DNA of 64,000 nucleotides. Origin: Myxococcaceae bacterium. Its GTDB lineage: Bacteria; Myxococcota; Myxococcia; Myxococcales; Myxococcaceae. The stretch covers positions 1 through 64,000 of the forward strand of contig JAEUJQ010000060.1 in assembly GCA_016793095.1 (NCBI GenBank), written 5' to 3'. The position numbers were made by a program, and so were the translations under genes. This document shows positions 23,883-38,875 of the stretch, in pieces. Below the pieces are notes generated by a model. It was not told where the DNA came from. It saw only the letters and a list, made by a program, of their open reading frames with translations, and made no database searches. The first letter of the stretch is position 1. Every line of letters begins with the position of its first letter.

Positions 23883-26561
23883 TCACGGACACGACCAGGG
23901 CGCCGTCGATCGGCTCAGGTTGCGGGAGTTCGCCGGATCGTGCGCCGTGTTCGGCCAGGGAGCAGTTCCGTCGAGCCCCTGTGAGTCGATGAGCCACGCT
24001 TCAGTCGAGTTGGCCCCGAGGAGGTACACCGTGCCGAAGTCCTGGCCGCAGGCCTTGGCGCCGCTCGGGAGTCTGGGAACGTCGACGGTGAAGTCGTTGA
24101 GCTGGGCGCTGAACGGCACTCCGAAGACGCCGCCATCGGGCCGAATCTCGGCAGCGCCGCCGAGAACGGGGACCCACACACCGCTCGAGCTCTTGATGGC
24201 GCGGGACGACGGGTTCAGCGACGGGCCATAGGCGACGCAGCCTGAGATGGCTGGCGTGGCGTCATAGTCACAGCGGTAGAGAACCCCGCTCGCTAGATGG
24301 ATGGAGTCGTTCCCAGCAACTGCCATTGTGCCTCCCAATCCCCCGAACGAGGTGGGGCCGCCGAGGTGGTTTGGCTGCAACACCAGAGTTACGTTACTCA
24401 ACGTTCCGAGCGTACCGGAGAGCAGGAACACCTGGGCGGCTGCTGGACCCTGAGCAATGCCCGCGTCCGAGAATGAAAACCCGTCGAAGGTGAACTTCTG
24501 GGGCGGACCACCTGACGCCATGTAGACACTGATCTCCCCGGTCAGGCCCAGCTCAACCGCCGCGCTGAGCCCAGTCCCGACGTCCAGACCGAGCTCGGGA
24601 CACGACGCCGTGCCAGCGAACACCCTGTCCTTGCGCCTCCCGATGGGGACCTCAGCGCCGATTGACGACGTCGCCAGAGCGAGCGGCGTGTCGAAAGGGC
24701 GCTGGTAGTCTGCGGTGCAGGTCGTCGCCAGCACACTGCCCGTGGCCAGACTGAGTCGGCGAATGCTGCTCTCCTGACTCCCATCATAGTCCGTGACATA
24801 GACACTCCCGGCGCCGACCACGGGGGGACGGACGGTGAGGGAGTTGGCTCCTGCCGACCAGAGCCACAGCGTGCCCCCGTCCGGTGCGACAGCGCGCACC
24901 TCGTTCGAGCTCTGGACGATGAGCGTGCCGTTTTCGGCGAGCCCAAGGCCATTGCCCCCGAATGCCCGCTCCCAGAGGAAGCGGGTGACGGGCAGCTCGT
25001 CGGTGAGCGCCGGGCTCTGGTTTCCGGCAGAGTCCGCGATGGGACGGACGGTCACGAAGGCCGCGCTCCGAGAGCCGCTCCGCGCTGGCAACTCGGCAGC
25101 GTGGCGCAGCGGCACCTGGAAACACTGGCAGCCCGAGCACCCGCAGGCAGCCGGGGCGACCTGCGTGATGGTCACGCCCGAATCGACGACGCTCAAGTCC
25201 GCGACCGTGACGGGCGGCCCGGCGTCCACGACGACCGCGAGCAATGCGGTCTCGTTCATCTTCCATGCTCCGGGGTCGCGGGAATACGGGTCGGGCCAGG
25301 AGGCAGGACGCGTGAGGGGCAAGAGGATCACCCCGGGCGGCACGGTGTCGCGCTCGATGGCGACGCTCGCCGTTGGGCCCCCGGCCGGCCAGCCGGCGAC
25401 GAAGGTCTTGCTGCCCTCCGGCGCGGCCATGGGGAGCGAGCCGGTGAAGACGCCCGCCGCGCCTGTCAGCGGTGGGAGCGGCCCCGTCGGCCCGGACAAC
25501 GGAATCGACGTCAACCCCGGAGGCACCGGCCCTCCGCTCCGCGTCACTGACAACCGGGCCGGCACGCTCGCCGAGTTGAAGGCCAGCCCCGCATCGGGCG
25601 AGGTCCACGTGAGCGAGAGGTTCAGCGATGGGCACGAGCCTCCGTCCAGCGAAGGGGTGCAGAACTGCCAGGGCTGACAGGCCGCGACGCACGAGATCGT
25701 CTGCACCGAGACCGACGCGCTCGGCCCGCCGTCCCAGCCGGCCGTGAACGACCACGTCCCGGCGACTGGGAGCGTGACGTTGGAGGCCACGCCCGCGGCG
25801 ATCGTCGCTGGCGCGCTCGCGTTGGTGCTCAGCGGGATCGCCACGGCGAACGAGCCGCCGTCTCGCAGGCGGGCGCTCACCTCGACGGGCACGGTGATTC
25901 CCGCGTCATAGACGGCGCCGTTCGGTGGCGAGACGAAGGCGAGGCTGAGGTTGACGCAGCGGCCCCCGTCGAGGTCGGCCTCGCACGGCGCGTAGACAGG
26001 ACAGCTCGCAGGACAGCTTGGGACGGGCGTTCCCCCCGCGCTCCCTCCGCCGGCGCCCCCGGCCGAGCCGCCCGCGGCGCCTCCAGAAGAGCCACCTGCT
26101 GCTCCACCGGCTGAGCCACCGCCGCCCCCGCCAGCAGCGCCCCCGCCGAGCCCGCCTGCGACCCCGCCCGAGCTGCCACCCGCGTCGCCGCCTGCGACAC
26201 CACCTGAGGTCCCACCCGCGTCGCCTCCCGCCACGCCCCCCGCGGTCCCGCCCGCATCGCCACCACCGCCTCCGAGACCGCCCGCCACGCCACCGGCAAG
26301 CCCACCCGCGACACCGCCCGCCAGACCCCCGCCGGTGCTCCCGCCCGCAGTTCCGCCGCCTGCTCCGCCAGCACGCCCACCCGCTGACGCACCACCGGCC
26401 GCGCCACCTCCGCCAGCGCTGGCCAGGCATCGTCCGTCGACGCAGCTCTGCCCACTCGCGCACGGCGGGAGATCGGGGCCGCAGCGATCACCGATCGGCT
26501 CCGGGCACCCGCTGGTGACGACCACGAGTCCCGTGACGACGAATGACAACTTCCAGTTCAT
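23883..26561 (-). CDS. Large surface lipoprotein with Gly/Ala-rich linker
   Basis: An 892-aa exported protein. The lipoprotein signal is MNWKLSFVVTGLVVVTSGC. A small Cys motif follows (CGPDLPPCASGQSCVDGRC), then about 130 residues of GG/A/S repeats (about 50-180), two similar Cys-containing modules (CPASCPVYAPCEADLDGG; SCVAACQPWQFCTPSLDGG) and immunoglobulin-like segments. The C-terminal third resembles a PQQ-type repeat (NEVRAVAPDGGTLWLW). This architecture is typical of myxobacterial outer-membrane lipoproteins whose linker lifts a binding module off the surface. The ligand is unknown. The C-terminal third is locally less GC-rich than its neighbours. Confidence 0.8.
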   Translation of the reverse strand: MNWKLSFVVTGLVVVTSGCPEPIGDRCGPDLPPCASGQSCVDGRCLASAGGGGAAGGASAGGRAGGAGGGTAGGSTGGGLAGGVAGGLAGGVAGGLGGGGGDAGGTAGGVAGGDAGGTSGGVAGGDAGGSSGGVAGGLGGGAAGGGGGGSAGGAAGGSSGGAAGGSAGGAGGGSAGGTPVPSCPASCPVYAPCEADLDGGRCVNLSLAFVSPPNGAVYDAGITVPVEVSARLRDGGSFAVAIPLSTNASAPATIAAGVASNVTLPVAGTWSFTAGWDGGPSASVSVQTISCVAACQPWQFCTPSLDGGSCPSLNLSLTWTSPDAGLAFNSASVPARLSVTRSGGPVPPGLTSIPLSGPTGPLPPLTGAAGVFTGSLPMAAPEGSKTFVAGWPAGGPTASVAIERDTVPPGVILLPLTRPASWPDPYSRDPGAWKMNETALLAVVVDAGPPVTVADLSVVDSGVTITQVAPAACGCSGCQCFQVPLRHAAELPARSGSRSAAFVTVRPIADSAGNQSPALTDELPVTRFLWERAFGGNGLGLAENGTLIVQSSNEVRAVAPDGGTLWLWSAGANSLTVRPPVVGAGSVYVTDYDGSQESSIRRLSLATGSVLATTCTADYQRPFDTPLALATSSIGAEVPIGRRKDRVFAGTASCPELGLDVGTGLSAAVELGLTGEISVYMASGGPPQKFTFDGFSFSDAGIAQGPAAAQVFLLSGTLGTLSNVTLVLQPNHLGGPTSFGGLGGTMAVAGNDSIHLASGVLYRCDYDATPAISGCVAYGPSLNPSSRAIKSSSGVWVPVLGGAAEIRPDGGVFGVPFSAQLNDFTVDVPRLPSGAKACGQDFGTVYLLGANSTEAWLIDSQGLDGTAPWPNTAHDPANSRNLSRSTAPWSCP
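26030..26420. repeat. Low-complexity GC-rich tract encoding the GG/A/S linker
   Basis: Short imperfect units coding GGxAGG, such as AGGVAGGDAGGTSGG and GLAGGVAGGLAGG, are repeated in tandem within the lipoprotein gene. The tract is likely to vary in length by slippage. Confidence 0.75.
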
Positions 26562-31886: not shown

Positions 31887-33146
31887 ATGAAACGCATCGC
31901 GATCCTGGGCGCGGGCACGGCCGGCACCCTGATGGCCAACAAGCTCGTCAAACGGCTGCCACCGGGCTGGCAGGTGACCGTCTTCGATGAGGACGATGTT
32001 CACGTCTACCAACCGGGGCTGCTCTTTCTGCCCTTCGGAGGCTACCGCGAGGACGAGATCGTGAAGTCCCGCCGGCCGCTCTTCGACCGCCGTGTGGAGC
32101 TGCGACTCCAGCCGGTCGAGCGCGTCGATGCAGCGTCGAACACGGTGCAGCTCGGCTCGGGCGAGAAGGTGCCGTACGACGTGCTGATCCTCGCGACCGG
32201 GAGCCGCATCGCCCCCGACCAGACGCCCGGGCTCACCGGCAAGGGCTGGAACGAGACGGCGTTCGAGTTCTACACGCTCGCCGGGGCGAAGGCCCTCCGC
32301 GGAGCCCTCGAGAAGTTCGAGGGCGGCAAGCTGGTCGTGAACGTCGCCGAGCTGCCCATCAAGTGCCCCGTCGCGCCGCTCGAGTTCCTCTTCCTCGCAG
32401 AGGCGTTCTTCACGGAGCGCGGGCTGCGCGACAAGGTCGAGATCGTCTACGCCACGCCGCTCGAGGGCGCGTTCACCAAGCCGGTCGCCTCGGCGACGCT
32501 GGGTGACATGCTCTCGCGCCGCGGCATCAAGGTCGTCCCAGACTTCAGCCTCGCCGAGGTCGACGGCGGTCGACGGGTGATCAAGTCGTATGACGGCCGG
32601 GAGGTGCCCTACGACCTGTTCGTCTCGATCCCGCTGCACGCGGGAGCCGAGATCATCGGCCGCTCCGGCCTCGGCGATGGCGGAGGCTGGGTGCCGACCG
32701 ACAAGCACACGCTGCAGACGAAGGCGCACACGAACGTCTTCGCGATCGGCGACTGCACTGATCTGCCCGCCTCCAAGGCCGGCGCGGTCGCGCACTTCCA
32801 GGGTGACGTGCTGATCGACAACGTCATGCGCTTCATCGAGGGGCGGGCGCTGCTGCCAGCCTTCGACGGCCACGCCAACTGCTTCATCGAGACGGGCCAC
32901 GGCAAGGCGATGCTGATCGACTTCAACTACCAGACCGAGCCCCTGCCAGGGCGCTTCCCCCTGCCCGGGGTGGGCCCGTTCACGCTGCTCGAGGAGAGCG
33001 CGATGAACCACTGGGGCAAGCTGGCCTTCAAGTGGACCTACTGGAACGTGCTCCTCGCAGGCGAGGAGCTGCCGCTGGATCACCACATGTCCATCGCTGG
33101 GAAGTGGCAGCGGCCGCCTTCCCCTGAACTGAGGAGCTCGCCATGA
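31887..33146 (+). CDS. sqr: Sulfide:quinone oxidoreductase-like flavoprotein
   Basis: Oxidises sulfide to sulfane sulfur and passes electrons to quinone at the membrane. The 419-aa protein has the N-terminal FAD motif ILGAGTAGTLMANKL, the mid motif LILATGSRIAPDQTPGL, and the FAD closing motif FAIGDCTDLPASKAGAVAHF, which is close to the type II/E enzymes. Candidate redox cysteines are Cys160 (LPIKCPVAPLEF) and Cys332 (HANCFIETG). A hydrophobic C-terminal part could dip into the membrane (HWGKLAFKWTYWNVLLAG). The start is the ATG at 31887 after TTCCGGAGGC. It overlaps the DUF1641-DsrC gene by four bases, which supports a sulfur role. Confidence 0.88.
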   Translation: MKRIAILGAGTAGTLMANKLVKRLPPGWQVTVFDEDDVHVYQPGLLFLPFGGYREDEIVKSRRPLFDRRVELRLQPVERVDAASNTVQLGSGEKVPYDVLILATGSRIAPDQTPGLTGKGWNETAFEFYTLAGAKALRGALEKFEGGKLVVNVAELPIKCPVAPLEFLFLAEAFFTERGLRDKVEIVYATPLEGAFTKPVASATLGDMLSRRGIKVVPDFSLAEVDGGRRVIKSYDGREVPYDLFVSIPLHAGAEIIGRSGLGDGGGWVPTDKHTLQTKAHTNVFAIGDCTDLPASKAGAVAHFQGDVLIDNVMRFIEGRALLPAFDGHANCFIETGHGKAMLIDFNYQTEPLPGRFPLPGVGPFTLLEESAMNHWGKLAFKWTYWNVLLAGEELPLDHHMSIAGKWQRPPSPELRSSP

Positions 33147-34189
33147 ACGCCGTCACCATCGACCCTCGAGCCGCGGACGCCCGCGCTCCCGCCGTGCCGG
33201 CGATGCACGACGTCGTGCACGACGCGCGCAGCGAGGTGCAGTTGCTGATCCTCGAGAAGCTCGACGCCATGTCGGCGCAGGTCGCCTTCCTCGCCGAGCG
33301 CCAGCGCAAGCAGCAGGAGTTGATCGAGGAGTTCACGCCCATCGTGAAGGAGATGATGAAGACCGCGACGGGCAAGCTCGACGCGCTCGAGAAGGAGGGC
33401 GTGCTCGCTTTCGGGAAGGAGCTGCTCGTCGTCGGCCAGCGCATCGCGAAGGCCTACACTGCGGACGACGTTCGGCAGCTCGGCGACTCGGTCGTGGCGA
33501 TCCTCGACACCGTGCGCGCGATGACTCAGCCGGAGATCCTCACGGCCGCGAACGAGGCCGCTCAGGTGCTGCAGCACGCGGACGAGACCCAGCCCATCGG
33601 CCTGGTCGGCATGGTGCGCGCGACGCGGAACGACGACGTTCAGCGCGGCATGGCGGTGATGATGGAGGTGCTGAAGAAGGTTGGCCAGGGCGTCGCTGCC
33701 GCCTCCCAGCGCCAGGCCGCGCAGGGAGACAAGCGGGCGAAGCTCCAACGGCTCCTGGGATCGAAGAAGAGGGCGCTGGGCATCGAGCGGCCCCAGTTGC
33801 CGGCGCGCGCCGTCCAGATGAAGCGCCCGGACGAGATGCCGGCGGCCCCGGCGTGCGCCGTGCCGAGCTCCGAAGCGCCGAAGGCAGCCGCCGTGTTCGA
33901 CGGGGTGGCGTTCACGGCCGATGGGGCGCTGGTCGATCAGTCGCAGTGGACTCGTGAGCTCGCGGCCACCATCGCCGCGACCCAGGCGGTGACGATGACG
34001 GACGCGCACTGGGCGTTGATCGAGTTCGCCCGGCGCGACTTCGAGCAGACGAAGGCGTCGCCCAACATCCGCCGCATGACGCAGGGCACCAACCTCACCA
34101 CGAAGGACATCTACGCGTTGTTCCCCAAAGCCCCGGCACGCACCGTGTCGAAGATCGCAGGTCTCCCCAAACCAGCAGGATGCCTATGA
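33143..34189 (+). CDS. DUF1641 protein fused to a DsrC/TusE-type sulfur carrier domain
   Basis: A 348-aa two-part protein. Residues 35-190 match DUF1641, which often accompanies SQR genes (LLILEKLDAMSAQVAFLAER, then QPIGLVGMVRATRNDDVQRG). After a basic and Ala-rich linker, residues 250-348 are a DsrC/TusE domain (VAFTADGALVDQSQWTRELA, ASPNIRRMTQGTNLTTKDIY). It ends SKIAGLPKPAGCL with the invariant penultimate Cys347. The second DsrC cysteine is Ser here (TVSKIAG), so it resembles TusE-type carriers that use a single Cys. The protein probably accepts sulfane sulfur made by SQR. It overlaps sqr and the DsrE-type gene at both ends. Confidence 0.82.
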   Translation: MNAVTIDPRAADARAPAVPAMHDVVHDARSEVQLLILEKLDAMSAQVAFLAERQRKQQELIEEFTPIVKEMMKTATGKLDALEKEGVLAFGKELLVVGQRIAKAYTADDVRQLGDSVVAILDTVRAMTQPEILTAANEAAQVLQHADETQPIGLVGMVRATRNDDVQRGMAVMMEVLKKVGQGVAAASQRQAAQGDKRAKLQRLLGSKKRALGIERPQLPARAVQMKRPDEMPAAPACAVPSSEAPKAAAVFDGVAFTADGALVDQSQWTRELAATIAATQAVTMTDAHWALIEFARRDFEQTKASPNIRRMTQGTNLTTKDIYALFPKAPARTVSKIAGLPKPAGCL

Positions 34190-34692
34190 ACGCCCTCTCT
34201 CAGCCGAACCCCGCACGCGACGTCATCGCCAGCACCCAGCGCAAGGTCGCGATCATCTGCTCACACGGCGGGCTCGACGAGGTCTACCCCTCGTTGATCC
34301 TCGCCAACGCCGCCCGGCAGTCCGGGATCGACGCGTTCGTGTTCTTCACCTTCTGGGGCCTCGACGCGATCACCGAGGGGAAGGTCGATCACCTGCACCT
34401 CAACCTCGTGGGGCAGCCGTCGTCTGGCATGCCGACGATGCTGGCGGGCCTGCCCGGCATGGAGAGCTTCGCGGCCACCATGATGAAGAAGCAGATGGCT
34501 GAGCTCGAGCTCCCGACCGTGCGGGAGATGATGCAGATCCTGGAAGAGGCAGGCGCCGAGCTGTACGCCTGCGAGCTCGCGATGAAGATGTTCAAGCGCG
34601 AGAAGAAGGACCTGCTGCCGTCCGTGAAGGACGTCATCACCGCCGGCGATTTCTACGATCTCGCCGAAGGCGCTCAGATCATCTTCACGTGA
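34186..34692 (+). CDS. DsrE/DsrF-like sulfur-transfer family protein
   Basis: A 168-aa DsrE-like protein: KVAIICSHGGLDEVYPSLIL, DAFVFFTFWGLDAITEG, and the conserved Cys129 in GAELYACELAMKMF, the position that carries persulfide in the family; Cys25 lies near the N-terminus. The C-terminal DVITAGDFYDLAEGAQIIFT is typical. I chose the ATG at 34186 (ATGA overlap with the preceding stop, AGCAGGA seven bases upstream) over 34180. With SQR and the DsrC-type domain it would complete a sulfide-to-carrier relay in the cytosol. Confidence 0.88.
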   Translation: MNALSQPNPARDVIASTQRKVAIICSHGGLDEVYPSLILANAARQSGIDAFVFFTFWGLDAITEGKVDHLHLNLVGQPSSGMPTMLAGLPGMESFAATMMKKQMAELELPTVREMMQILEEAGAELYACELAMKMFKREKKDLLPSVKDVITAGDFYDLAEGAQIIFT

Positions 34693-37733: not shown

Positions 37734-37855
37734 GGGGCGGGATGTAGCGCAAGCCGATGGGCGCGGCAGGTGCGTTCGTCGTCGCTCGTCGGTCGACTCG
37801 GCCCACCATCGCGAATAGGTTCCCGCCTCAGCGGAACACCTCTTCAGGAGCGCAC

Positions 37856-38875
37856 ATGCGGAAGTTGATCTGGTTTTCGGCGGCGGTGATCCTCGGCGCG
37901 GTCGTCGGGTTTGCGTGCGGCACGCCGGCCGCGAAGTGTTCGGTCGCGTCATGTGCAGGCTGCTGCGCCAGCGATGGCACCTGCCAGGGCGGGAACACGA
38001 CCCAGGCGTGCGGCACCCAGGGGAACGCCTGCAACGCCTGCAGCGCGAACCAGACCTGTGTCGTGGGTGCCTGCATGACGGGTGGCTCGTCGGGAGGGGC
38101 AGGCGGGGGCTCCTCGGCAGGCGGCGCGGCTGGTGGCTCGGGTGGTGGAGCGGCTGGCGGCTCGACGGCCGGTGGCTCAGCGGGCGGCAGCACGGGCGGC
38201 GGCTCGGTGGGTGGAGGCTCCGCTGCCGGCGGGAGCGCGGCCGGCGGGACGGCTGGCGGAGCGATGCTGATGTTCGACGCCGGCATGCCACCCCAGGTGG
38301 CGATCAGCTTCGCGACGACGTGTGCGGCCGCCCAGCCCTGCGGCGGCGCGCTGCCGGGCCTGTGGCACTACCAGACCGTGTGCGTGGAAGACTCCATCTT
38401 CACGCGGCTCCAGAACCTGTGCGGCGGGGCCTCGCAGAGCTCGGTCAACGATCGGTCGGGCACTGCGCGCGGCGCGGTGTTCTTCACGGCGACCCAGATG
38501 GCGCGGCAGGTGAGCGGTCGGGTGGACTTCTCCATGTCCACCACCAACTCGACCTGCGTGAACGGCTTCATGGGCTTCGGAGGGTGCACCAATCTGCCGA
38601 CGCTGCTCGGCAACGCGGGCGTGCAGGGCACCTGTGCGCTCGAGCTCGCTGACGGCGGCGCCTCGACGAGCACCTGCACCTGCCGGTTGAGCTTCGCGTT
38701 CAACGATCAGGCGACCGACACCTACACGGCGTCGGGCAACGTCATCACCACCGCGGGCAATCGCACCTTCGAGTACTGCGTGCAGGGCGCCTCGATGACC
38801 TACGAAGAGACGACGCCGGCGAGCGTGACGAACATCGCGCGCGATCCCGGAGTGTCCACGCTGTCGAAGCAGTGA
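37856..38875 (+). CDS. Cys-rich lipoprotein with Gly/Ala/Ser linker
   Basis: A 339-aa lipoprotein. The signal is MRKLIWFSAAVILGAVVGFAC. Residues 28-78 hold twelve cysteines in short loops (CSVASCAGCCASDGTC, CNACSANQTCVVGAC). Residues 80-140 are a GG/A/S linker. The C-terminal 190 residues contain two repeated-looking Cys pairs (CGGALPGLWHYQTVC, STCTCRLSF) and look beta-rich. CAGGAG lies seven bases before the ATG. The plan is the same as that of the large lipoprotein at 23883-26561. Surface location is likely and the ligand unknown. Confidence 0.78.
   Translation: MRKLIWFSAAVILGAVVGFACGTPAAKCSVASCAGCCASDGTCQGGNTTQACGTQGNACNACSANQTCVVGACMTGGSSGGAGGGSSAGGAAGGSGGGAAGGSTAGGSAGGSTGGGSVGGGSAAGGSAAGGTAGGAMLMFDAGMPPQVAISFATTCAAAQPCGGALPGLWHYQTVCVEDSIFTRLQNLCGGASQSSVNDRSGTARGAVFFTATQMARQVSGRVDFSMSTTNSTCVNGFMGFGGCTNLPTLLGNAGVQGTCALELADGGASTSTCTCRLSFAFNDQATDTYTASGNVITTAGNRTFEYCVQGASMTYEETTPASVTNIARDPGVSTLSKQ

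Follow-up and report, generated by a model that had tools for sequence, protein, structure and literature searches.

How does sulfur leave a bacterial sulfide:quinone oxidoreductase (SQR), and what does the small helical domain DUF1641 do beside such an enzyme? Both questions are raised by three genes at positions 31887-34692 of a 64,000-nucleotide stretch of DNA from a Myxococcaceae bacterium (GenBank assembly GCA_016793095.1, contig JAEUJQ010000060.1, positions 1 to 64,000 of the forward strand), here called the window. They encode an SQR, a protein joining DUF1641 to a DsrC/TusE-type sulfur carrier, and a DsrE2-type protein. An earlier note, made from the sequence alone, had proposed a sulfide-to-carrier relay in which DUF1641 docks the carrier at SQR. 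The comparisons below leave a predicted sulfur relay from SQR to DsrC to DsrE2 well supported. They point to another role for DUF1641, most likely that of a subunit coupling SQR to the membrane and menaquinone.

The operon and its gene order

The coordinates of the three genes and the ATGA overlaps at both joints, as first described, were verified in the window. For the third gene an alternative ATG at 34180 is possible, and the ATGA overlap exists only with the start at 34186.

31887-33146, forward strand: SQR of the NF049943 subfamily, 419 amino acids, identified by NF049943 score and match to human SQR
33143-34189, forward strand: DUF1641-DsrC fusion protein, 348 amino acids, with both Pfam domains in one frame
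34186-34692, forward strand: DsrE2-type protein, 168 amino acids, the sole PF13686 match in the genome

One genome per species was scanned with an alignment of the SQR, and the best 80 of at least 576 relatives were kept, so that the survey covers the closest relatives only. Overall, 90 loci were compared, and gene order was analyzed in the 72 with at least 2 kb downstream of SQR. Searching the surroundings with hidden Markov models, we found the order SQR-[DUF1641]-DsrC-DsrE2, in which DUF1641 is optional, in all 72 loci. The co-occurrence in other genomes on which the earlier note had staked its proposal is therefore found. The loci span at least 13 named phyla: Myxococcota, Gemmatimonadota, Bacteroidota, Chlorobiota, Rhodothermota, Chloroflexota, Caldifarciminota, Actinomycetota, Calditrichota, Verrucomicrobiota, Fidelibacterota, Ignavibacteriota and Acidobacteriota. 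A profile search of 189 Myxococcota genomes placed members of the subfamily (714-789 bits) in exactly the nine genomes that have DsrC and DsrE2, and other Myxococcota SQRs score at most 256 bits; a tenth, fragmentary match of 338 bits in genome G107 ends with its contig. At one locus (L064, positions 598-2262; VGRQ01000137.1, a metagenome-assembled genome of Deltaproteobacteria), a single frame runs from SQR straight into the C-terminal half of DsrC, with no DUF1641 between them. Because the gene order is invariant, the co-occurrence wide, SQR and DsrC directly fused at L064 and the cysteines conserved, the proposed relay from sulfide to a carrier gains support. One SQR subfamily thus has predicted dedicated protein sulfur acceptors in a fixed order across these phyla, which bears on the exit route of SQR sulfur in bacterial cells.

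The genome from which the window comes contains one DsrC, one DsrE2, one DUF1641 and one SQR match (E <= 1e-60), all within the operon. A whole-genome search found no dsrA (TIGR02064), no match to PF02635 (TusBCD-type DsrE), which argues against TusBCD, and no second DsrC/TusE. The absence of dsrAB and tus genes, first noticed near the locus, thus extends to the whole genome for these families; sox genes are absent at the locus, the only scale at which they were searched. Three TusA-family matches lie elsewhere in the genome, and these proteins could act as sulfur acceptors. The components of the operon all come from known families, and the combination itself is new. In the open-access literature, we found no paper naming DUF1641 together with DsrC, no description linking DUF1641 to an SQR-DsrC operon in the DUF1641 papers examined, and no operon of this kind in the titles and abstracts of papers with SQR, TusE and DsrE.

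SQR and the predicted sulfur carriers

By family score and both redox cysteines, the product of the first gene is assigned as a sulfide:quinone oxidoreductase. Its Pfam match is Pyr_redox_2, and against NF049943 ('type III sulfide quinone reductase, selenoprotein subtype', NCBIfam) it scores 598.8 bits, above the cut-off of 525; its relatives score 563-663 bits. Among PDB sequences, human SQR is the closest solved relative (E 7.7e-42), and the NDH-2 flavoprotein YjlD (entry 9pxk) is also matched (E 3.5e-9). Both predicted redox cysteines are invariant in the alignment:

32364-32366, forward strand: codon of Cys160, the first redox cysteine, aligned with the cysteine of V-K-C in human SQR
32880-32882, forward strand: codon of Cys332, the second redox cysteine, aligned with the cysteine of G-Y-T-S-C in human SQR

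Selenocysteine-containing members of NF049943 carry this residue in an HxxU motif (PMC13188914), at the site of Cys332. In the window SQR and the relatives examined, the site holds cysteine and no selenocysteine, making these the Cys form. TGA stops inside the matches in G163 and G162 were considered as selenocysteine codons and rejected as ordinary gene ends. A longer SQR C-terminus where DUF1641 is absent was likewise considered; the pattern fails in loci L087, L101 and L109 and was not used.

The name of the family might suggest a different substrate. Since the nearest NCBI family is the 'selenoprotein subtype', the genome lacks dsrA and TusA-family proteins could take up the sulfur, the module might act mainly on persulfide, polysulfide or selenide instead of sulfide and assimilate sulfur or selenium for biosynthesis. 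We consider this quite improbable, because both cysteines align with the human SQR pair and because the selenocysteine subtype exchanges a redox cysteine, which does not require a change of substrate. Human SQR passes its sulfur to small molecules. The operon SQR resembles the human enzyme (PDB 6oi5 and others) in its flavin adenine dinucleotide (FAD) fold and two redox cysteines, and differs from it in having predicted dedicated protein acceptors encoded alongside. Features of these acceptors are as follows:

33890-34186, forward strand: DsrC/TusE domain, residues 250-348 of the fusion protein (PF04358; fold match to 1yx3)
34181-34183, forward strand: codon of Cys347, the penultimate DsrC carrier cysteine (CysA)
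33854-33856, forward strand: codon of Cys238, in the linker
34570-34572, forward strand: codon of Cys129 of DsrE2, the predicted sulfur-carrying cysteine, invariant in the alignment and within the motif [FYW][AGS]C

In the second protein, both Pfam matches exceed their gathering scores, bearing out the union of DUF1641 with a DsrC/TusE-type domain. The DsrC match (PF04358) covers residues 255-348 with 94.9 bits (cut-off 24.9, E 5.1e-27); the same part scores 76.9 bits against TIGR03342 (NCBIfam, cut-off 53.5) and 56.8 bits against the TusE equivalog NF008562, far below its cut-off of 191. DsrC chains are the nearest solved relatives of the fusion protein. In its AlphaFold model, residues 249-348 match DsrC of A. 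vinosum (1yx3) with a Z score of 13.4 and a root mean square deviation of 2.0 over 100 residues, so the fold predicted for residues 250-348 is present. A flexible linker, modelled with low confidence, separates this domain from the helices at residues 26-205.

Of the operon DsrCs, the 84 whose end is intact all keep CysA, and in the same 84 the CysB position, 11 residues upstream, is occupied by Ala, Ser or Thr (Ser in the window). CysB is present in the canonical DsrCs of the Myxococcota genomes G041, G056 and G108. By these sequence features, the operon DsrC is placed in the DsrC/TusE/DsvC superfamily and is neither the canonical DsrC of the Dsr pathway nor TusE. Cys347 had been given as the only cysteine; the DsrC domain indeed has no other, and the whole protein has a second, Cys238, in the Pro/Ala-rich linker. 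A linker cysteine occurs in 15/22 fused proteins, mostly in an [AS]C[AS]xP context, and the DUF1641 region has no cysteine in 3570 residues. Cys238 could substitute for the missing CysB.

Two further DsrC arrangements were seen. In G056, a canonical two-cysteine DsrC (L044 5975-6292, contig C153) is present as well as the fusion, so both kinds coexist in one genome. At L046 4576-5223 (G194, contig C187), one frame holds two DsrC-like repeats, neither of whose matches extends to the carrier-cysteine end of the domain, and a further DsrC gene adjoins it.

The third protein, described earlier as DsrE-like with Cys129, is more exactly of the DsrE2 type: it matches DrsE_2 (PF13686) with 105.6 bits (cut-off 25, E 3.1e-30), and 78 of the 79 operon DsrE2 proteins that are full-length carry the [FYW][AGS]C motif. 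In the Tus relay of E. coli (TusA-TusBCD-TusE) and the DsrEFH-DsrC system of sulfur oxidisers, a DsrE-type protein exchanges persulfide with the terminal cysteine of TusE or DsrC. The operon differs from these relays in having DsrE2 instead of DsrEFH, SQR as the predicted donor and DsrC fused to DUF1641, in a genome lacking TusBCD and dsrA.

Regulatory roles have been proposed for DsrC-family proteins, and DsrC could instead be a sensor or regulator whose persulfidation signals how much sulfide is present and controls SQR or a regulator, with no bulk carriage of sulfur. The C-terminal half of DsrC resembles TetR helix-turn-helix (HTH) domains (Z about 7), and many loci have sensor-like regulators upstream. 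The HTH likeness, however, is a general trait of the DsrC fold, the regulators vary among phyla while the enzymes are constant, and DsrC always has DsrE2 after it, which fits a transfer partner. A purely regulatory DsrC is therefore very unlikely.

DUF1641 and its relatives

What, then, does DUF1641 contribute? Two features describe it in the window:

33218-33757, forward strand: DUF1641 helical region, residues 26-205 (helices in the model; PF07849; homology to ForE1, YjlC and HucM)
33575-33688, forward strand: Pfam core of DUF1641 (PF07849)

The Pfam match (PF07849) spans residues 145-182 (E 4.9e-12) and scores 45.9 bits, or 49.6 in the genome search, against a cut-off of 21. The AlphaFold model places helices at residues 26-84, 87-104, 107-127, 130-144, 154-160 and 164-205. 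When a profile of the operon DUF1641 proteins was compared with PDB sequences, it matched ForE1 (E 1e-9), YjlC (8e-5), a chain named 'NDH-2 membrane coupling protein' by its depositors (1.6e-4) and, weakly, HucM (0.035). Taken alone, the YjlC segment scores 25.0 bits and the matched segment of HucM, its C-terminal stalk, 30.9 bits against PF07849, both above the cut-off of 21.

These relatives serve enzymes that reduce quinone and have no sulfur carrier. ForE, the DUF1641 subunit of the ForCE formate dehydrogenases in B. subtilis, is needed for formate:menadione activity and for most of the bound menaquinone (PMC8808070). The operon resembles ForCE in placing a DUF1641 subunit beside a soluble enzyme that reduces menaquinone, as predicted for the operon SQR; the ForCE partner is a Mo/W enzyme, and ForCE has neither a sulfur carrier nor a DsrC fusion. 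The B. subtilis NDH-2 YjlD/YjlC (PDB 9pxk-9pxm, 9snk), known here by entry names and sequences only, is closer in that the DUF1641-family subunit sits on a flavoprotein homologous to SQR; its substrate is NADH and it has no cysteine relay. In the [NiFe]-hydrogenase Huc, the DUF1641-like HucM forms a stalk proposed as the route by which menaquinone is carried to the soluble enzyme (PMC10017518); unlike the operon, Huc is a hydrogenase with a tetrameric stalk and no sulfur carrier. Two further reports mention DUF1641 genes: one is the first gene of a Parageobacillus hydrogenase operon, described in a study of the Huc-type enzyme of that bacterium (PMC12976888), and in Ignicoccus one is up-regulated together with a gene for an FAD-dependent disulfide oxidoreductase, the two having consecutive locus numbers (PMC3149612). 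One small helical subunit family thus links enzymes as different as formate dehydrogenase, NDH-2, Huc hydrogenase and SQR, which suggests that DUF1641 is a general adaptor between soluble dehydrogenases and the menaquinone pool.

The partners of DUF1641 within Myxococcota can be compared directly. The 189 genomes contain 12 DUF1641 matches, seven of them in the SQR-DsrC-DsrE2 operon and three (in G162, G016 and G182) directly upstream of an SQR of a different family, with no detectable DsrC or DsrE2 beside these pairs; of the remaining two, one lies beside a CobW/HypB-family gene and one is a chance match. Thus DUF1641 tracks the quinone-reducing enzyme, not the sulfur carrier. A second DUF1641-like match in the genome of the window (contig C78) was rejected as chance, being below the Pfam cut-off in a frame opposite other genes, as was a 25-bit match in G132 among unrelated genes.

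The earlier note took the fusion as a direct sign that DUF1641 is a docking domain bringing the sulfur carrier to SQR. DUF1641 does lie between SQR and DsrC in the operon, and one clade has the two fused into a DUF1641-DsrC protein. Docking as the function of DUF1641 is nevertheless unlikely and not supported by the comparison: DUF1641 adjoins other SQRs that lack DsrC, SQR-DsrC-DsrE2 persists without DUF1641, and ForE, YjlC and HucM serve carrier-less enzymes. By homology and by the partners it retains, DUF1641 is most likely a menaquinone- or membrane-coupling subunit of SQR. The genome carries menD and has no match to the futalosine-type PF02621, which fits synthesis of menaquinone by the classical route.

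Two of the separate DUF1641 loci have other neighbours. At L169 1664-4951 (G182, contig C22), DUF1641 lies upstream of the different SQR, and a divergent metallo-beta-lactamase/rhodanese protein resembling persulfide dioxygenases adjoins; G182 carries the fusion operon as well as this pair. At L168 1120-4433 (G016, contig C476), a 515-residue protein with a C-terminal DUF1641 motif adjoins a His-rich CobW/HypB-family protein, and the locus is possibly part of a hydrogenase locus.

Proposed mechanism and origin of the fusion

We think it rather probable that the three genes specify a sulfide:menaquinone oxidoreductase that associates with the membrane and has sulfur acceptors of its own. In this scheme, whose steps and direction are predicted from homology and conserved residues, SQR (FAD, Cys160/Cys332) would oxidise sulfide, one of its cysteines retaining the sulfane sulfur. 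Since the flavoprotein is otherwise soluble, the DUF1641 part would bring it to the membrane and to menaquinone, much as ForE serves formate dehydrogenase, YjlC NDH-2 and HucM the Huc hydrogenase, and electrons from sulfide would pass to menaquinone. The sulfane sulfur would move from SQR to Cys347 on the DsrC arm, from there to Cys129 of DsrE2, and on to a further acceptor. Fusing DsrC to the coupling subunit would raise the local concentration of acceptor at SQR. A more specific version is possible though doubtful: SQR, DUF1641 and DsrC would form one complex in which the carrier arm is loaded straight from the SQR cysteine without free polysulfide, and in the Myxococcota form, whose carrier lies within the coupling subunit, Cys238 would replace CysB in releasing sulfur from Cys347.

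Several observations weigh against the general scheme. DUF1641 is undetected in about a quarter of the loci, and is therefore not essential to the relay. The DsrE2 protein scores 87.6 bits against the NCBI family SulfCarrDsrE2 (NF047629), below the cut-off of 210, and so belongs to a distinct subfamily. The model of the fusion protein is only moderate in the DUF1641 half (predicted template modelling score 0.40), and a fold search with the whole protein gave this half no match, the list being filled by DsrC and HTH matches; kinship to the coupling subunits thus rests on sequence profiles, and the missing match is no evidence of a new fold. In the model of the L064 SQR-DsrC protein, SQR residues 328-423 have a predicted local distance difference test score (pLDDT) below 50, which makes it uninformative on docking.

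The fusion itself occurs in 23 of the 90 compared loci and in 6/195 Myxococcota genomes, and this recurrence argues against a sequencing artefact. It is present in only two of seven genomes of the same genus and is therefore patchy. In G163 each of the four domains has a gene to itself, in identical order; G192 has SQR-DsrC-DsrE2 without DUF1641, as does G058, assembled across contig ends. Outside one Myxococcota-type clade, DUF1641 is a separate gene or absent, and at least 20 loci keep SQR-DsrC-DsrE2 with no detectable DUF1641 gene. In the SQR tree, all fused forms fall in one clade (support 96/83), together with L060, which ends at a contig edge, and L064. Most simply, then, the fusion arose once, and the SQR-DsrC protein of L064 is probably a later rearrangement. 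Mixed SQR/DsrC alignments were discarded because DsrC was misaligned onto SQR.

Clustering the neighbours of the loci revealed no further conserved enzyme around the operon, only varied regulators; the three largest clusters were shadows of the core genes on the opposite strand. Upstream regulators vary from phylum to phylum and include MerR as well as proteins that, by inspection, look like ArsR or sensor types. In Calditrichota, KSB1 and Bacteroidota, a Cys-rich MerR-family regulator (L074 5499-5972 and relatives) sits immediately upstream of the operon and is a candidate sulfide or persulfide sensor. Elsewhere in the window, two open frames (23883-26561 and 37757-38875) contain long Gly/Ala/Ser-rich stretches of the GGSAGG type and Cys-containing segments, and their products are likely exported.

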